From: Minwuia thermotolerans
GTDB taxonomy: Bacteria > Pseudomonadota > Alphaproteobacteria > Minwuiales > Minwuiaceae
Direction: 5' to 3'
NCBI RefSeq assembly: GCF_002924445.1
Contig: NZ_PIGG01000037.1
Coordinates: 62,001-126,000 of the forward strand
Length of the DNA stretch: 64,000 nt
A program made the position numbers and the translations under genes. Positions 31,614 to 38,141 of this stretch are shown here, piece after piece; the first letter of the stretch is position 1, and every line of letters begins with the position of its first letter. Under the pieces are notes generated by a model. That model had not been told where the DNA came from. It did no database searches and worked only from the letters and a program-made list of their open reading frames with translations.

Positions 31614-33305
31614 CTACTTGGAGGCCGGGAAGGGCGGCGGGCCGCCCAGGCGCGCCATCGCCAGGTCGCGCCATTGCGGCGGCGGCAACGGTCTGGAGAA
31701 GAAGTAGCCCTGCAGGCGGTCGCAGCCATTGGCGACCAGCCAGTCGGCGATCTCCTGCGTCTCGACGCCCTCGGCGACGATGTCCATGCCCAGGTCCTTG
31801 CCGATCTGGATGGTGCGGCGGACCAGAATGGCATCGCGTTCCGAGCTCATGACGTCGCGGACGAAGGACTGGTCGATCTTCAGCGTGTCGGCCGGAATCC
31901 TCTTGAGATAGACCAGCGACGAATAGCCGGTGCCGAAGTCGTCGATGGCGATGCGGACGCCGGTTTCGCGCACGCGCTCCAGGACGGGAACGAGGCGCTC
32001 CAGATCCTCGATGATCGCGGTTTCGGTGATCTCGAGCTCGAGCAGGGCGAGATCGGCGGGATCGTCGCCGAAGGCCTCGCGCAGCATGTCCGGGAAGCGC
32101 GGATCGGTGACGTCGCTGCCGGAGACGTTGACAGAGAACCGCAACGCCGACTGCGGCGCGAATCCGCGAACCTCGAGGACGTGGCGCTTCGCGGTCTCGA
32201 AGCCGAAGCGGGTGAGGTCGAAGATCAGCCGTGATTTTTCCGCCAGCGGGATGAAACGGGCGGGCGAAATGAAGCCGTTTTCCGGATGCGCCCAGCGGAC
32301 AAGCAGTTCGGCGCCCCGGAGCGAACCGTCCACGGCGAATTTCGGCTGCGCGTGGAAGACCAGCAGCCGCCCGTCGATGGCGCCGCGAAGGTCCGACAGC
32401 AGGCGCAGGTTGTCGCGCTGTGCGCCGTCCTGCCCGGAGTCGAACAGATGCACCGACCTGTTCGGGGCCTGACCGGCGCGGGCGATGGCGGCGAAGGACG
32501 CCCGCAGCAATTCCTCCGGCTCATCGCCGTGGTCCGGATAGGTCGCGATGCCGATCTCGCAGTCCACCAGCGCCGGCAGGCCGCCCATGTCCAGCGGATC
32601 GCGCAGCGCCGAGCGCAGATCCTGGCCGACCGCCACCGCGTCCGTTTCCGGCGTGTTGATCAGGAAGCAGAGGAAACGCGCCTGACCGCCGCGCGCCAGG
32701 AAGCCGTCGTCGGGAAGGGCCCCGGCGATGCGCCGCGCGCAGGAGCGCATCAGCGTCTCGTAGGCGTCGACCCCGAACGAGGAATGGATGTCGTCGCCAT
32801 TGGTCAGGCTCAGGTGGATGACGGCGTGCTGGCCGCTGGAGCCGCCCTCCGCCTCCAGGGTCTGGGCGATATGACGCCGGAGCGGTCCGGCGAGCGGCAG
32901 TTCGGTGCTCGCATCGTAATTGGCAAGGCGGAAGCGCTCTTCCCGGCCCCGCAGGACGATGCGGTTGAGCAGGCCGATCACAACGCCGATGGCGCAGAGG
33001 TAGACGCCGCGGAACAGCCAGTTCGAGGCCGGCTGCATCTCGCCCGTGGCGACGTCGAGCGGCATCAGCGGCCCCATGAGGATCATGCCGACGAGACCGG
33101 CGACGAAGCCGCCGAGCTCGTCGTAACGGAAGGCGGCCAGCAGGATCGGGAAGTAGATGACGTGCAGGTGGACGTATTTCGTGCCGCCGTCAGCGTGCAC
33201 CAGCAGCCAGGCCCCGGCAAAGGTCAGGATAATCAGGGGTATCGCGACCCAGTGGCGCCGGAACAGCCGGATCGCTTCGAACGCGGACGCAACGCGGTAA
33301 CTCAT
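31614..33305 (-). CDS. Membrane EAL-domain protein with degenerate GGDEF domain
   Basis: A 563-residue c-di-GMP signalling protein. The N terminus (1-120) has about four membrane helices. A GGDEF-like domain (about 128-290) has GGQAR at 206-210 in place of GGDEF, so cyclase activity is unlikely. The EAL domain (about 300-550) has ELL in place of EAL, but the other catalytic residues are visible: Asn in SVNVSGSD, Glu in ELEITETAI, the Asp pair in IAIDDFGTGYSSL, Lys in LKIDQSF, Glu in AEGVETQE, and QGYFFSRPLP. It is probably a phosphodiesterase. Confidence 0.93.
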   Translation of the reverse strand: MSYRVASAFEAIRLFRRHWVAIPLIILTFAGAWLLVHADGGTKYVHLHVIYFPILLAAFRYDELGGFVAGLVGMILMGPLMPLDVATGEMQPASNWLFRGVYLCAIGVVIGLLNRIVLRGREERFRLANYDASTELPLAGPLRRHIAQTLEAEGGSSGQHAVIHLSLTNGDDIHSSFGVDAYETLMRSCARRIAGALPDDGFLARGGQARFLCFLINTPETDAVAVGQDLRSALRDPLDMGGLPALVDCEIGIATYPDHGDEPEELLRASFAAIARAGQAPNRSVHLFDSGQDGAQRDNLRLLSDLRGAIDGRLLVFHAQPKFAVDGSLRGAELLVRWAHPENGFISPARFIPLAEKSRLIFDLTRFGFETAKRHVLEVRGFAPQSALRFSVNVSGSDVTDPRFPDMLREAFGDDPADLALLELEITETAIIEDLERLVPVLERVRETGVRIAIDDFGTGYSSLVYLKRIPADTLKIDQSFVRDVMSSERDAILVRRTIQIGKDLGMDIVAEGVETQEIADWLVANGCDRLQGYFFSRPLPPPQWRDLAMARLGGPPPFPASK

Positions 33306-33448
33306 GCCCGGACCTTTCGGACCATGCGGTATCCCGTATAGGATGCACGTCAGGGTAATATGGTCCTACATTCAGTCGCGAACCAGCGCCCATGGTTCCC
33401 GCTTGGGCTGCGCCAGACGCATAGCCTGAGTGCCGACCGCATTTTCCG

Positions 33449-34384
33449 TCAGCTGGCGGCGATCAGCAGGCCGGAAACGCTCAGCACGGCGAGGCCGGTG
33501 GTCAGCAGCACAATGGTCGAGGCGCGGGCGACCGCTGCGTCGTACTGGGCCGCAAGCACGTAGATGTTCGCGCCGGTGGGCAGGCTGGCGATGACCACCA
33601 CCAGAAGCGCCAGGTCGGGGGGCAGGTCGAGCACCAGGAAGGCCAGCACCGCCGCCAGCGCCGGATGGACGGCAAGCTTGCAGAGCGTGGCGAAGCCCAC
33701 CTCGGCGCGGCCTTCGGCGATGGGGCGGCCGTAGAGGCTGCCGCCCAGCGCGAACAGGGCGCAGGGGCCGGCGGCGCCGCCCAGCAGGTCGCCGAAGCGT
33801 TCCACCGGTCCCGGCAGCGGCAGGGCCAGAAGGCCCCAGACCACGCCCAGCACCATGCCCAGCATGAAGGGATTGCGCCCGAAGCCCTTCAGCACGTTCA
33901 GCGCCAGCCGCGCGGGGCGGAAGCTGGGCGCCGAGGCGGCCTCCAGGAAACCCATGATCAGGGTGATCAGGATCAGGTTGTCGGCCAGCAGGATCAGGCC
34001 CGCCGGCGCGCCCGCCGCGGGCCCCAGCGCGCCGATCACCAGCGGCACGCCGAGATAGGCGATGTTGGAGAAGGCGGCGCCGCCGGCGACCACGGTGCGT
34101 TCGGCCAGGCTCCGCCCCGGAAAGACGGCGCGGCCCAGCAGCAGGGTGGCGAAGAACAGGATCACCGAGGCCCCGGAATAGGCCGCGACCAGCCGCCAGT
34201 CCGACAGCGCACCCATCGGCGCGCGGGCGAAGATGAAGAACAGCAGCACCGGCAGGGCGAAGTAGTAGACGAAGCGGTTGAGGCCCGCGAGGCCCTCGGC
34301 GCTGAGCACCCGGAAGCGCATCGCCGCGAAGCCGAGCAGGACCAGCGCGAACAGCGGGACGACCGATTCCAGGACCGCGGTCAC
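33449..34384 (-). CDS. AEC-family transporter
   Basis: A 311-residue membrane protein with ten predicted helices in two five-helix halves. The N-terminal motif VVPLFALVLLGFAAMRFRVLS and LNRFVYYFALPVLLF are typical of auxin efflux carrier family proteins, as is GANIYVLAAQYD near the last helices. Bacterial members export organic acids or related metabolites; the substrate is not known here. The GTG start overlaps the stop of the upstream gene by 4 bp (GTGA). It is the last gene of the cyclase operon. Confidence 0.9.
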   Translation of the reverse strand: MTAVLESVVPLFALVLLGFAAMRFRVLSAEGLAGLNRFVYYFALPVLLFFIFARAPMGALSDWRLVAAYSGASVILFFATLLLGRAVFPGRSLAERTVVAGGAAFSNIAYLGVPLVIGALGPAAGAPAGLILLADNLILITLIMGFLEAASAPSFRPARLALNVLKGFGRNPFMLGMVLGVVWGLLALPLPGPVERFGDLLGGAAGPCALFALGGSLYGRPIAEGRAEVGFATLCKLAVHPALAAVLAFLVLDLPPDLALLVVVIASLPTGANIYVLAAQYDAAVARASTIVLLTTGLAVLSVSGLLIAAS

Positions 34385-35253
34385 AGGGCCAGCAGGGCCC
34401 GGAATCCCTCCATCGCGGCGGCATCGGGCGGGCTGCGCCGGCCGCTGGCGCGGTCGAAGAAGCTCATGACGTACTCGACCCGGGCCACGATCTCCCCGTC
34501 GGTCTCGTCGGCGATGATCTGGCCAAAGCGGACCGAGGTCTCGCCGAAGCCGAGCGTCGCCACCCGCACGGAAAGCAGGTCGCCCATGCGCGCGGGCCGG
34601 CCGTGGCGCACCTGGACGGCGGTCATGGCGCCGGCCGCGCCGCGCTGGCCCATCTCGCGGCGATGGCCGCCCAGCGGGACCTGCACCGCCCAGAGCGCGC
34701 GGGTGACGATGTCGAAGATCGCCCGGGGCGACTGCAGTTCGTGCTCGTCGCAGTCGCGCACCTCCACCGTGCCGCGCCAGGCGAGCAGCGCGTGCTCGGG
34801 CGGGTGCGCCGGCGTCCAGGGTTCCGGGATCGGCCGGAGCCGCGCCTCCGCTTCCACCGGCGGCAGGTCCGGCGTTGTCCCATCCACCGACACCCGGCGG
34901 TCGACGTCGTGGATGGCCCAGCTCGTCTCGAAGCGCATGACCGGCGCGTCGTCATGCGGGCGCAGCATGCGGCCCGCCAGCGTCGTTTCCCCGTCAATGT
35001 CCAGCCCGCCTGCGCCCTCGATGAAGGCGGCGTCGCCCGGCGCCAGCTCGCGGCGGAAGTCGATGCGTTCCTTCAGCGGGCGGACGGCAAGGCCCTTCGC
35101 GCGCATCTCGATCGGGTCATGGCCCAGTTCGAAGGCGTGCGCCCGGCGCGCTTCCTCGATGGCGTTGGCGTAGTGCTGGATGTTGACGTGGCCGCCCAGG
35201 CCGCGCTGCCACTGGTTGAACACCCCGCGCCAGTAGACCGCATCCCCGCTCAC
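34381..35253 (-). CDS. Double-hotdog thioesterase-like protein
   Basis: A 290-residue protein that appears to contain two hotdog folds. The first has GGHVNIQHYANAIEEARRA, a variant of the 4HBT GHVN-Y motif. The second has WRGTVEVRDCDEHELQSPRAI. The linker (about 120-160) is Pro-rich. An acyl-CoA thioesterase or related role is likely, but no specific catalytic set could be confirmed. The GTG start overlaps the stop of the preceding thioesterase gene, and its own stop overlaps the AEC start, both as GTGA. Confidence 0.75.
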   Translation of the reverse strand: MSGDAVYWRGVFNQWQRGLGGHVNIQHYANAIEEARRAHAFELGHDPIEMRAKGLAVRPLKERIDFRRELAPGDAAFIEGAGGLDIDGETTLAGRMLRPHDDAPVMRFETSWAIHDVDRRVSVDGTTPDLPPVEAEARLRPIPEPWTPAHPPEHALLAWRGTVEVRDCDEHELQSPRAIFDIVTRALWAVQVPLGGHRREMGQRGAAGAMTAVQVRHGRPARMGDLLSVRVATLGFGETSVRFGQIIADETDGEIVARVEYVMSFFDRASGRRSPPDAAAMEGFRALLAL

Positions 35254-35687
35254 AGGCCGAACGCCTCCTTCGGGGCGACGAAGGTCCGGGCGGCGGCGAG
35301 AATGTCATCGGGCATGATGGTCCGTTTGCGCGCCTCGAGATCGAAGGGGAAGCCCAGCGAATGGGCGTTCAGCGCCAGCACGCCGTCGGTCAGCCGCGTC
35401 ATGCGGTGGGCGGTGTGGACCTGCCGCTCCGTCACTTCCAGGAAGCCGGTCTCGACCATGTACAGATCGCCGGGCCGCAGCTCGCGGCGGAACTTCAGTT
35501 CCATGGAGACGGCGGCGAGGCCGAGCCGGCGCTGCTTTACCACTGCCGGTCCCAGCCCGATCAGCGACAGCATGTGCAGGAAGGCGTCGCTCAGCGCGGC
35601 GTCGTAGAACTGCACGTTCATGTGGCCGAAATGGTCGCACTGCTCGGCGCGGACCACGCCGCGGAACGTCTCCGTCGGTCCGCTCAC
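35250..35687 (-). CDS. 4HBT-family acyl-CoA thioesterase
   Basis: A 145-residue single hotdog protein. AEQCDHFGHMNVQFYDAALSD matches the 4-hydroxybenzoyl-CoA thioesterase motif, with Asp as the likely catalytic residue. FRRELRPGDLYMVETGFLEV and a hydrophobic C-terminal strand complete the domain. The GTG start overlaps the end of the adenylate cyclase gene by 4 bp, and its stop overlaps the double-hotdog start, so all should be translated from one mRNA. The acyl-CoA substrate is unknown. Confidence 0.85.
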   Translation of the reverse strand: MSGPTETFRGVVRAEQCDHFGHMNVQFYDAALSDAFLHMLSLIGLGPAVVKQRRLGLAAVSMELKFRRELRPGDLYMVETGFLEVTERQVHTAHRMTRLTDGVLALNAHSLGFPFDLEARKRTIMPDDILAAARTFVAPKEAFGL

Positions 35688-37360
35688 GATTTCGTCCCGC
35701 CCCCGCTCTCCGGCAGGTCCGCGGCCGAGTTGAGCACGAAGGCGTCGACGGTGCGGTCGCGGCCGGGAATGGCGACCTGCCGCCGGGTCCGCCCGCTCAT
35801 GTCCAGCCCCGCAGTCGCCGCGGTTTCGGCCGACAGCACCAGCTGGCTGCCGAATTCCTTGTTGGCCGCCTCCAGCCGGCTGGCGGTGTTCACCGCGTCG
35901 CCGATGGCGGTCAGCGAGACCGTATCGCGGTAGCCCATCTCGCCGACGATGACGTCGCCGACATGGACGCCGATGCCGATGCGCATGGGCTGGCCCAGAT
36001 CGTCGGCCAGCGCCTGGTTCATGCGATCGAGCGCCACCGAGATGTCGCGCGCCGCCGCGAGCGCCCGCCTTGCCCCGTCCTCGGGTCCCGATTCGATACC
36101 GAACAGCGCCATCACCCCGTCGCCGATGAACTTGTCGAGCCGGCCCCCATTGGCCTCGACTGCGCGGCCCATATAGCGGCAATACTGGTTGATGACAAAG
36201 ACCACGTCATAGGGCAGGCGGCCCTCGGCGAAGCGGGTGAAGTCGCGCAGGTCGGCGAACAGGATGGCGATTCGCCGTTCCGCGCCCTGGGCGTAGCCGT
36301 TGCGGCCATAGGCGTCGCGGACCTCCGCCGGCTCCGCCACCAGGGGGATGACGCGCAGGTCGGCCTCGGGCCGGAGCTGGCAGGCCAGCCGGACCCCTTC
36401 CGGCGCGCCGATCCGGCGCAGCACGCGGCGCTCTGCGTCTTCCGGCGGCGGCAGCTTTTCCCAGCCTTCCAGCACCCGGATACGGCAGGTGGAGCAGCGC
36501 CCGCGGCCGCCGCAGACGCTGGCGTGGGCGATGCCGGCGCGGCGGCTGGCCTCCAGCACCGTGACGCCGGGTTCGACGATGGCGCGGCGGTTGTCGGGAT
36601 AGCGGATGGTGACCAGGTTGCGCCGCCGCTCCCACAGGTAGTGCGCGCCGCGCGCCGCGCCCAGCAAGCCGATGAAGGCGATCATCGCCGTCCACGTCGC
36701 GTCGCGCGTCTCGTAGACCCAGGCCGCCGCCTCGGCCGGCAGGGCGGTGCGCTGCGTATAGGCCTGCAGCCAGACCGGATCCTGGGCGCGCAGGCTCACT
36801 TCCTGGCCGCCGCTGACGAAGCCGGCCAGGCCGAGCACCAGCACCATCAGCGCCGCGGTGTAGAGCGCCGGGGCGCAGGGGCGGTAGCGGGGTTTCAGCC
36901 TGAGCCACATGTGGACGCCGAGACAGCCATGGATCCAGGCGATGATCGTCAGCGCGGCCTGTTTCAGGCCCTCGAAGGGGTCGAGCTGCCACAGTCCCAT
37001 CAGCACCCAGCTGTAGGTGTCCTCCAGGCCGTGCAGTTCGTGCAGGCCCCGGTTGGCGAGGATGTGGAGCACCAGCAGCGGCGGGATCGCCAGCGCGGTG
37101 ATGTACTGCACGACCTCGGCCGCCGTGATGCCGCGCCAGGTCCGCCGGCGGTAGATCGAGGCGAGGCCGGTGGCGACATGGGCCATGGTCGCGGTCAGCA
37201 GCACCGCCGTGCCGGCCCAGGAGCGCCAGACGAACAGGAATATCTCGCGGCCCCCGTCCATCGCCTGCAGCGAGACGATGCCCAGGGCGTGATTGACCAG
37301 ATGCGTGGCCAGGAAGGCGAACAGCACCAGCCCCGAATAGAGCCGCACCCGGTTGATCAT
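35684..37360 (-). CDS. CyaC-like adenylate cyclase with SDHC-type diheme and [2Fe-2S] domains
   Basis: A 558-residue membrane protein in three parts. Residues 1-245 form about six helices with paired His (H20/H24, H61, H99, H110, H144, H150), resembling the diheme cytochrome b anchor of succinate-quinone oxidoreductases. Residues 246-340 are a ferredoxin domain with ligands C283, C289, C292 and C327. Residues 360-545 are a class III cyclase with metal Asp370 (FADLRDF), Asp414 (GDGVMALFG), Lys410 and Asp488 (IGDAVNTASR), which favour ATP over GTP. The same architecture is known from S. meliloti CyaC, a redox-controlled cyclase. The frame is open to 37525; the Met at 37360 fits the first helix. 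Confidence 0.87.
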   Translation of the reverse strand: MINRVRLYSGLVLFAFLATHLVNHALGIVSLQAMDGGREIFLFVWRSWAGTAVLLTATMAHVATGLASIYRRRTWRGITAAEVVQYITALAIPPLLVLHILANRGLHELHGLEDTYSWVLMGLWQLDPFEGLKQAALTIIAWIHGCLGVHMWLRLKPRYRPCAPALYTAALMVLVLGLAGFVSGGQEVSLRAQDPVWLQAYTQRTALPAEAAAWVYETRDATWTAMIAFIGLLGAARGAHYLWERRRNLVTIRYPDNRRAIVEPGVTVLEASRRAGIAHASVCGGRGRCSTCRIRVLEGWEKLPPPEDAERRVLRRIGAPEGVRLACQLRPEADLRVIPLVAEPAEVRDAYGRNGYAQGAERRIAILFADLRDFTRFAEGRLPYDVVFVINQYCRYMGRAVEANGGRLDKFIGDGVMALFGIESGPEDGARRALAAARDISVALDRMNQALADDLGQPMRIGIGVHVGDVIVGEMGYRDTVSLTAIGDAVNTASRLEAANKEFGSQLVLSAETAATAGLDMSGRTRRQVAIPGRDRTVDAFVLNSAADLPESGGGTKS

Positions 37361-37523
37361 CTGGCAAGCGCCCGCATTTCCCCCTTCATGAGCCGAACCT
37401 AGACGAATTTCCCCCGGGCGGGCAGGCTTTCCGGCGGGTGCGCCGATCAAGGCTTTGTGCATTCGATTTGCCGCGCCGGGCGGTCTATAGCTCGGCCGGA
37501 ATGAAACAGGGGGAGGAGCGGCC

Positions 37524-38141
37524 ATGTCCGCTGATGGCGTGATCGAATATTTCTATGCGGCCCATTCGGCCTTTGCCTATCTGGGCTCGAGGCGGTTCAT
37601 GGAGATCGCGGCGAAGGCCGGGCGGCGGATCGTCCACCGGCCGGTGGACCTGCGGCTGGTGGTGGCGGAAGCCGGCGCGACGCCGTTCCCGAAGCGCTCG
37701 AAGGCGCATGTCCGGTATTTCTTCGGCCGCGAGATACAACGCTGGTCGGAGGAGCGCGGCGCGCCGGTGCTGGGCCGGACGCCCACCTTTCACCACCACG
37801 ACATCGGCCTGCCCAACTGTTTCCTCATCGCCGGCATGGAGCAGGGGCTGGTGATCGACGAACTGGCGCATCGCCTGCTGGAAGCGCACTGGAAGGAGGA
37901 CGCCGATCTCGCCGACCCGGCGACGCTGCTGCGTCTCGGCCGGGAAGCGGGCGTCGAGCCGCAACCGCTGCTGGAGGCCGCCGACAGCCCGGCCATGCGC
38001 GAGATCTACGACCGCTTCACGCGCGAGGCGATCGAGCGCGGCATCTTCGGCTCGCCGACCTATTTCGTCGACGGCGACATGTTCTACGGCCAGGACCGTC
38101 TGGAGATGGTCGAACGCGCGCTGGCGAAGCCCTACGCGTGA
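37524..38141 (+). CDS. 2-hydroxychromene-2-carboxylate isomerase/DsbA-family protein
   Basis: A 205-residue thioredoxin-fold protein of the HCCA isomerase (kappa GST-like) group. The N-terminal strand IEYFYAAHSAFAYLGSRRF has the Ser-bearing loop in place of a CxxC. The C-terminal part has GIFGSPTYFVDGDMFYGQDRLEMVE, the family hallmark around the cis-Pro. Relatives act in naphthalene degradation or as glutathione-dependent isomerases, and no aromatic catabolic genes are nearby, so the substrate is open. GGGGGAGGAG precedes the ATG. It is divergent from the cyclase operon. Confidence 0.88.
   Translation: MSADGVIEYFYAAHSAFAYLGSRRFMEIAAKAGRRIVHRPVDLRLVVAEAGATPFPKRSKAHVRYFFGREIQRWSEERGAPVLGRTPTFHHHDIGLPNCFLIAGMEQGLVIDELAHRLLEAHWKEDADLADPATLLRLGREAGVEPQPLLEAADSPAMREIYDRFTREAIERGIFGSPTYFVDGDMFYGQDRLEMVERALAKPYA

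Follow-up and report, generated by a model that had tools for sequence, protein, structure and literature searches.

A CyaC-type cyclase and a hotdog-AEC cassette, probably two older units, form one overlapping four-gene arrangement in Minwuia thermotolerans and a sister genome

The window analyzed here is a stretch of 64,000 nucleotides from the genome of Minwuia thermotolerans (G000; contig NZ_PIGG01000037.1, positions 62,001 to 126,000), and our subject within it is a four-gene unit encoding a CyaC-type class III nucleotide cyclase, a single hotdog thioesterase-like protein (HD1), a double hotdog protein (HD2), and a membrane transporter of the auxin efflux carrier (AEC) family (Table 1). 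The unit is real and tight, and it was probably joined recently, in two sister genomes, from two older units. With somewhat better than even confidence, we regard the cyclase and the HD1-HD2-AEC cassette as two separately conserved elements that came together in a lineage of two genomes, and the data can be explained without a signaling relation between them.

Each junction between the four genes is a 4-base GTGA overlap. The same order with identical overlaps occurs in G006, a sister genome assembled as a single contig, whose proteins are 92-99% identical to those of the window (96% for the cyclase). The Pfam matches of all four proteins exceed the gathering cut-offs, and hotdog folds are predicted for HD1 and HD2. 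A preliminary description of this DNA had recognized two thioesterase-like genes and an AEC gene in a tight operon, and both the gene assignments and the arrangement hold. Because the genes overlap, they probably share a transcript and are translationally coupled. Positions 33200-37700 contain no match to a sigma-70-like promoter or a terminator, which is little informative given that shuffled sequences yield 0.3 and 1.3, respectively. Ratios of nonsynonymous to synonymous substitution rates (dN/dS) between the window and G006 are below 1 throughout (cyclase 0.137, HD1 0.046, HD2 0.257, AEC 0.056).

The preliminary description had also proposed that a redox-responsive cyclase controls the thioesterases and the exporter, and conserved synteny of the cyclase, hotdog, and AEC genes had been set beforehand as the check. 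We searched for the cyclase in 96 relatives and 385 genomes of the class Alphaproteobacteria and analyzed the surroundings of 110 places, which make 111 loci with the window. Locus counts come from profile searches, which find a cyclase in all 111 loci versus 85 rows from a codon-usage gene caller that missed genes. The set includes two partial matches (L065 and L066) and a contig-end piece (L064), flanks stop at contig ends, and 12 places from the class search as well as weaker matches to the catalytic domain alone in relatives lie outside it. HD1, HD2, and AEC genes follow the cyclase within 5 kb in two of the 111 loci, namely the window and G006, and no cyclase locus from outside the genus matches either hotdog profile within 5 kb downstream (threshold 1e-8). 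The synteny is thus confined to two sister genomes of one genus, essentially the outcome that the preliminary description had named as refuting, which leaves the proposed control unsupported.

The cyclase has other neighbors elsewhere. In 27 of the 111 loci, representing 11 families, the cyclase is preceded on its own strand by an adenosine-kinase-like PfkB gene; the two genes are within 150 bases of each other in 25 of them (294 bases in L036 and 931 in L037). The best solved relatives of the kinase are 4e3a, named a sugar kinase, and 3ubo, named an adenosine kinase; we found no open-licence paper on an adenosine kinase/adenylate cyclase operon in alphaproteobacteria. No kinase, hotdog, or AEC profile is matched near the cyclase in 82 of the 111 loci. 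A Pfam scan of 37 same-strand downstream neighbors returned 4HBT_2 in five, MFS_1 in four, and PF13000 (acetyl-CoA transporter family) in four; the window's genus contributes six hotdog genes to the 37 rows, one of them a 49-residue piece, and the MFS_1/PF13000 neighbors are, at a guess from their lengths of 440-447 amino acids (aa), those in L046, L049, L267, and L295. A different 4HBT_2 hotdog gene, TE48, stands behind the cyclase in four loci, all from the window's genus (G001-G004). It overlaps the cyclase 3' end by 4 bases in G001, G003, and G004, and in G002, where the gene caller missed it, the profile places it at the same distance. TE48 matches YbgC models weakly, below their cut-offs.

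The cassette likewise stands without the cyclase. In our sampling, the genus of the window comprises G000, G006, and G001-G005, and G007 represents another genus of the same family. HD1, HD2, and AEC genes lie away from the cyclase in G001, G002, G003, and G005, with the same 4-base overlaps; a short-chain dehydrogenase/reductase (SDR) gene precedes the cassette in G001-G004, not in G005. In G004, the AEC gene is cut to 113 codons (L120:9613-9954), apparently by internal loss, and HD1 and HD2 are intact. For the survey beyond the genus, we compiled 82 stretches with HD1-family hotdogs, which are the best matches of HD1 and HD2 searches and not a random sample; seven are contigs fetched twice (L134-L139 and L144), leaving 75 distinct stretches. 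Apart from the window and G006, none of the 75 has a cyclase within 8 kb of the hotdogs. At least three hotdog domains or a called HD1 and HD2 pair are present in 22 of the 75, and 12 of these 22, from four genus-level lineages, have an AEC gene. The remaining 53 stretches have no AEC gene (0 of 53), and carboxylase or dehydrogenase genes lie near three of them (L122, L123, and L130), all double hotdogs. Gene content and order are shared by more than one lineage: they recur in family f1 (two genera), in family f93 (one genus, with fused hotdogs), and on a contig of a metagenome-assembled genome (MAG), JAFKFH010000003.1. The link between hotdog and AEC genes made in the preliminary description thus extends beyond the window's genus. 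G209, G300, and G377, members of one genus, encode a single triple-hotdog protein of 451-463 aa directly before AEC, and the fusion is an argument for HD1 and HD2 acting together in one complex. We found no open-licence paper on a three-hotdog arrangement, be it 1+2 or fused.

The loci that hold the two halves in relatives stand without them in G000 and G006. The best homologue of the SDR gene (72% identity) has no adjoining cassette, the kinase gene (72%) has no adjoining cyclase, and the best relative of TE48 (55%) precedes a putative rplU gene, as TE48 itself does in the sister genomes (in each case, the following gene is presumably rplU). Both halves therefore have other neighbors in G000 and G006 than in the relatives, which suggests that two separately conserved elements met recently; because the relatives keep the halves apart, the union is probably not an established signaling pathway. 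Identities to the sister genomes are 59-63% for HD1 and AEC, 60-64% for the cyclase, and 37-41% for HD2, and those to G007 are 32% for HD1, 36% for AEC, 24% for HD2, and 54% for the cyclase. A horizontal arrival of the cassette is not favored, as the identities of HD1 and AEC within the genus are about equal to that of the cyclase.

The cyclase fits the diheme-b CyaC type, with heme binding predicted from sequence. In an alignment of 106 near-full-length rows, the window's included, H20, H61, H99, and H144 of the membrane domain, C283, C289, C292, and C327 of the Fer2 domain, and D370 and D414 of the catalytic domain are each kept in 106 of 106 rows. We take the four membrane histidines to be the mark of the CyaC family and the two aspartates to be metal ligands. 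Together with the Pfam matches, the conserved histidines and cysteines bear out the earlier assignment of diheme-b, [2Fe-2S], and class III parts, the hemes being predicted. Wissig et al. (2019) are reported to describe a [2Fe-2S] cluster in CyaC as well. The CyaC of Sinorhizobium meliloti (SMc01818) is described as a redox-regulated adenylate cyclase with a diheme-b six-helix anchor and a class III domain (PMC10463352), and the window's cyclase resembles it in its predicted diheme-b-type membrane part and its catalytic domain. S. meliloti cyaC adjoins transcription regulator genes (PMC10463352), whereas the window's cyclase adjoins hotdog and AEC genes.

The AEC protein matches PF03547 at E 3.7e-37 and the TIGR00946 and YfdV models below their cut-offs (28 bits versus 404 for YfdV). 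It thus shares a family and a weak model match with Escherichia coli YfdV, which is listed as uncharacterised (PMC10971958). Seven of the best eight AEC matches of the class adjoin hotdogs, G100 being the one that does not, and none of the 22 ranked after them does, judged over 1.5 kb or as far as the contig reaches. The profile used for the ranking was built from cassette AECs and includes G000, G002, G003, and G007 as rows, so that only G209, G300, and G377 are independent. No open-licence paper was found on operons or gene clusters of thioesterases and AEC-family transporters.

Genes for acyl-coenzyme A (acyl-CoA) metabolism recur near the hotdogs. An operon in G009 encodes carboxylase subunits and acyl-CoA dehydrogenases, and genes homologous to one or more of these are found close to eight of the 22 multi-hotdog stretches; approximately 3 kb separates the single from the double hotdog in L225 and L227. 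The best solved relative of the carboxyltransferase in the G009 and G052 operons is the geranyl-CoA carboxylase beta subunit (792 and 721 bits), followed by propionyl-CoA carboxylase (548 and 528 bits) and methylcrotonyl-CoA carboxylase (547 and 526 bits). Double-hotdog relatives of HD2 in G009 and G052 sit in these operons, the carboxyltransferase of which is nearest to geranyl-CoA carboxylase, an enzyme of acyclic terpene utilisation, and the entire cassette of G007 comes after genes closely homologous to those of the dehydrogenase and the biotin carboxylase. In contrast, the cassette of the window's genus stands outside such an operon, and the carboxyltransferase homologue of G000 is on contig C26. 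A close carboxyltransferase homologue exists in all 15 genomes searched, with or without the cassette (64-74% identity in the 14 besides G009), so its presence is no marker of the cassette. The biotin carboxylase piece in G007 (L121) has the methylcrotonyl-CoA carboxylase alpha subunit as its best solved relative, a ranking that is not decisive because the geranyl-CoA carboxylase alpha subunit is absent among the 60 matches listed. An NCBIfam scan of the cassette neighbors reached no equivalog cut-off, and the geranyl-CoA link therefore rests on the ranking of solved structures; subfamily cut-offs were reached by an enoyl-CoA hydratase in L210 (PRK08272) and a biotin carboxylase in L122 (PRK08591), neither of which names a substrate of interest. 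The neighborhood of the cassette is probably one of acyl-CoA degradation of the branched or isoprenoid kind, with geranyl-CoA as a lead to the substrate type. We found no open-licence paper on a cassette-like arrangement of geranyl-CoA carboxylase and thioesterase.

HD1 carries an intact CDxxGHMN signature in the alignment, and its AlphaFold model (pLDDT, a predicted local accuracy score, 90.1) matches YbgC/4HBT-like thioesterase folds; the HD2 model (pLDDT 86.4) has the fold of FatA/acyl-acyl carrier protein (ACP) thioesterases, with the best Foldseek matches at E ~1e-15. Both models are confident; the alignments behind them had 12 and 9 rows. In family, fold, and signature, HD1 resembles 4HBT_2 thioesterases such as YbgC and the thioesterase part of carnitine 3-dehydrogenase (NF005716), yet it matches NF005716 with 37 bits versus a cut-off of 592, and those thioesterases differ from the 1+2 or fused three-domain set of the cassette. 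No open-licence paper was found on betainyl-CoA thioesterase with carnitine or on carnitine dehydrogenase-thioesterase in Pseudomonas. HD2 shares a predicted double-hotdog fold with FatA/acyl-ACP thioesterases but is 11-18% identical to them among the matches listed, and its signature is degraded. In the first half of HD2, Gly18 replaces the signature Asp, to which we ascribe a catalytic role, and Gly is found in all six rows of the window's genus in alignment A2; the three A2 rows from outside the genus keep Asp. The GHMN part of the second half is lost in all nine A2 rows, leaving only a remnant. Because the signature is intact in HD1 and degraded in HD2, HD1 or an HD1-HD2 complex would be the likelier catalyst.

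On the reading we favor, the cyclase would probably, as in its family, read the redox state of the quinone pool through two b hemes and the [2Fe-2S] cluster and make cyclic AMP (cAMP). As family membership, the fused proteins, and the neighboring genes suggest, the three hotdog domains of HD1 and HD2 would jointly cleave an acyl-CoA, perhaps branched-chain or isoprenoid, and the AEC carrier would export the freed acid as a CoA-sparing overflow valve; a coupling of the cassette to the cyclase is possible. Several observations weigh against this reading. The overlaps and the four dN/dS values, each below 1, are compatible with a functioning operon. Two different hotdog genes behind the same cyclase within one genus are odd, because hotdogs make up only about 0.6% of genes in G000 (~29 of two Pfam families among ~4,800 genes, at 63 called per 64 kb), and coincidence is unlikely, in a pattern that was noticed after the fact; the HD1 and TE48 states may go back to one event followed by replacement. 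HD2 may be no enzyme, since its first half is without the signature Asp. Finally, 10 of the 22 multi-hotdog stretches have no nearby AEC gene, and four of the 22 (L125, L128, L155, and L209) have neither AEC nor dehydrogenase or carboxylase genes, the L209 contig ending after HD2.

That the four-gene arrangement is an artefact of a fragmented assembly was considered because G000 is in 82 contigs and matches recurring in C4, C15, and C37 suggest redundant contig ends; the single contig of G006, with the same genes and overlaps, rules this out for practical purposes. The circuit of the preliminary description, in which quinone redox, sensed by the cyclase, would act on the hotdogs and AEC by way of cAMP or through direct contact and let acids out when the respiratory chain is congested, is possible but not favored, and we hold it to be quite improbable: the overlaps kept in two genomes and the two forms of hotdog directly behind the cyclase in this genus (HD1, or TE48 in G001-G004) speak for it, whereas the restriction to two of 111 loci, the lack of hotdog matches downstream of the cyclase outside the genus, the small share of 4HBT_2 among downstream neighbors (with this genus's own hotdogs as six of the 37 rows), and the cassettes that stand elsewhere without a cyclase speak against it. 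Very doubtful, too, is a variant in which the hotdogs are functional partners of the cyclase, for example as acyl-CoA-binding subunits, and the cyclase reads both quinone redox and acyl-CoA load and drives the acid-export valve in G000 and G006. In another reading, HD2 and conceivably all the hotdogs would bind acyl-CoA instead of cleaving it, as regulatory or helper subunits for AEC or HD1. The losses of Asp within the genus and of GHMN in every A2 row, the highest dN/dS of the four genes in HD2, and the degraded third domain of the fused triple-hotdog proteins all point that way; we nevertheless consider it unlikely, as HD1 keeps the full signature, Asp persists in the first half of HD2 outside the genus, and the predicted HD2 fold is that of double-hotdog thioesterases.

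Table 1. Features of the four-gene unit in the window and of related loci
Feature	Location	Strand	Remarks
CyaC-type class III nucleotide cyclase, 558 aa	35684-37360	-	ATG start; Pfam Guanylate_cyc and Fer2
Presumed diheme-b membrane domain, ~aa 1-245	36626-37360	-	four His; helices and heme predicted
[2Fe-2S] Fer2 domain, aa 260-331	36368-36583	-	PF00111, E 2.7e-10; four Cys
Class III cyclase catalytic domain, aa 362-537	35750-36277	-	PF00211, E 9.2e-16; matches solved cyclases
GTGA overlap, cyclase/HD1, 4 bases	35684-35687	-	
HD1, single hotdog thioesterase-like protein, 145 aa	35250-35687	-	GTG start; 4HBT_2 (PF13279); predicted fold
GTGA overlap, HD1/HD2, 4 bases	35250-35253	-	
HD2, double hotdog protein, 290 aa	34381-35253	-	GTG start; 4HBT_2 in two stretches, and 4HBT
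GTGA overlap, HD2/AEC, 4 bases	34381-34384	-	
AEC-family membrane transporter, 311 aa	33449-34384	-	GTG start; Mem_trans (PF03547)
TE48, other 4HBT_2 protein	L033:8498-8965; L034:8510-8977; L036:6257-6721; G002:C105:6554-7015		
Triple-hotdog proteins	L210:9157-10548; L212:8720-10075; L215:8881-10245		third domain degraded; directly before AEC
Cyclase loci with kinase gene	L032-L038, L040-L043, L046, L049, L064, L257-L262, L265, L267, L277, L286, L295, L297, L315		
Multi-hotdog stretches with AEC gene	window, G006, five other genus members, G007, MAG contig JAFKFH010000003.1 (L140), G209, G300, G377		
Multi-hotdog stretches near carboxylase or dehydrogenase genes	L121, L126, L140, L146, L219, L222, L225, L227		AEC too in L121 and L140

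Around the unit, a gene for a GGDEF/EAL cyclic di-GMP phosphodiesterase-like protein (window 31614-33305, minus strand) follows the AEC gene on the same strand after 143 bases. Upstream of the cyclase, a divergent gene (window 37524-38141, plus strand) encodes a 205-aa protein that has no NCBIfam match at 1e-10 and presumably resembles 2-hydroxychromene-2-carboxylate isomerase or a DsbA-like protein. In the G000 assembly, contigs C15 and C37 show matches at identical coordinates close to their starts, and the matches recur in C4. A Parvibaculum MAG has three consecutive double-hotdog genes (L155:6045-8835).

A redox-cAMP-export circuit is thereby replaced by two testable units, the pair of an adenosine-kinase-like gene with CyaC and the cassette of three hotdog domains with AEC. 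Adenosine salvage tied to redox-controlled cAMP would be worth a separate study. The cassette gives a concrete starting point for finding what an AEC carrier of this kind transports; should it prove to couple thioesterase action to export, it would serve as a valve that spares CoA by shedding an overflow of branched or terpene-derived acids.

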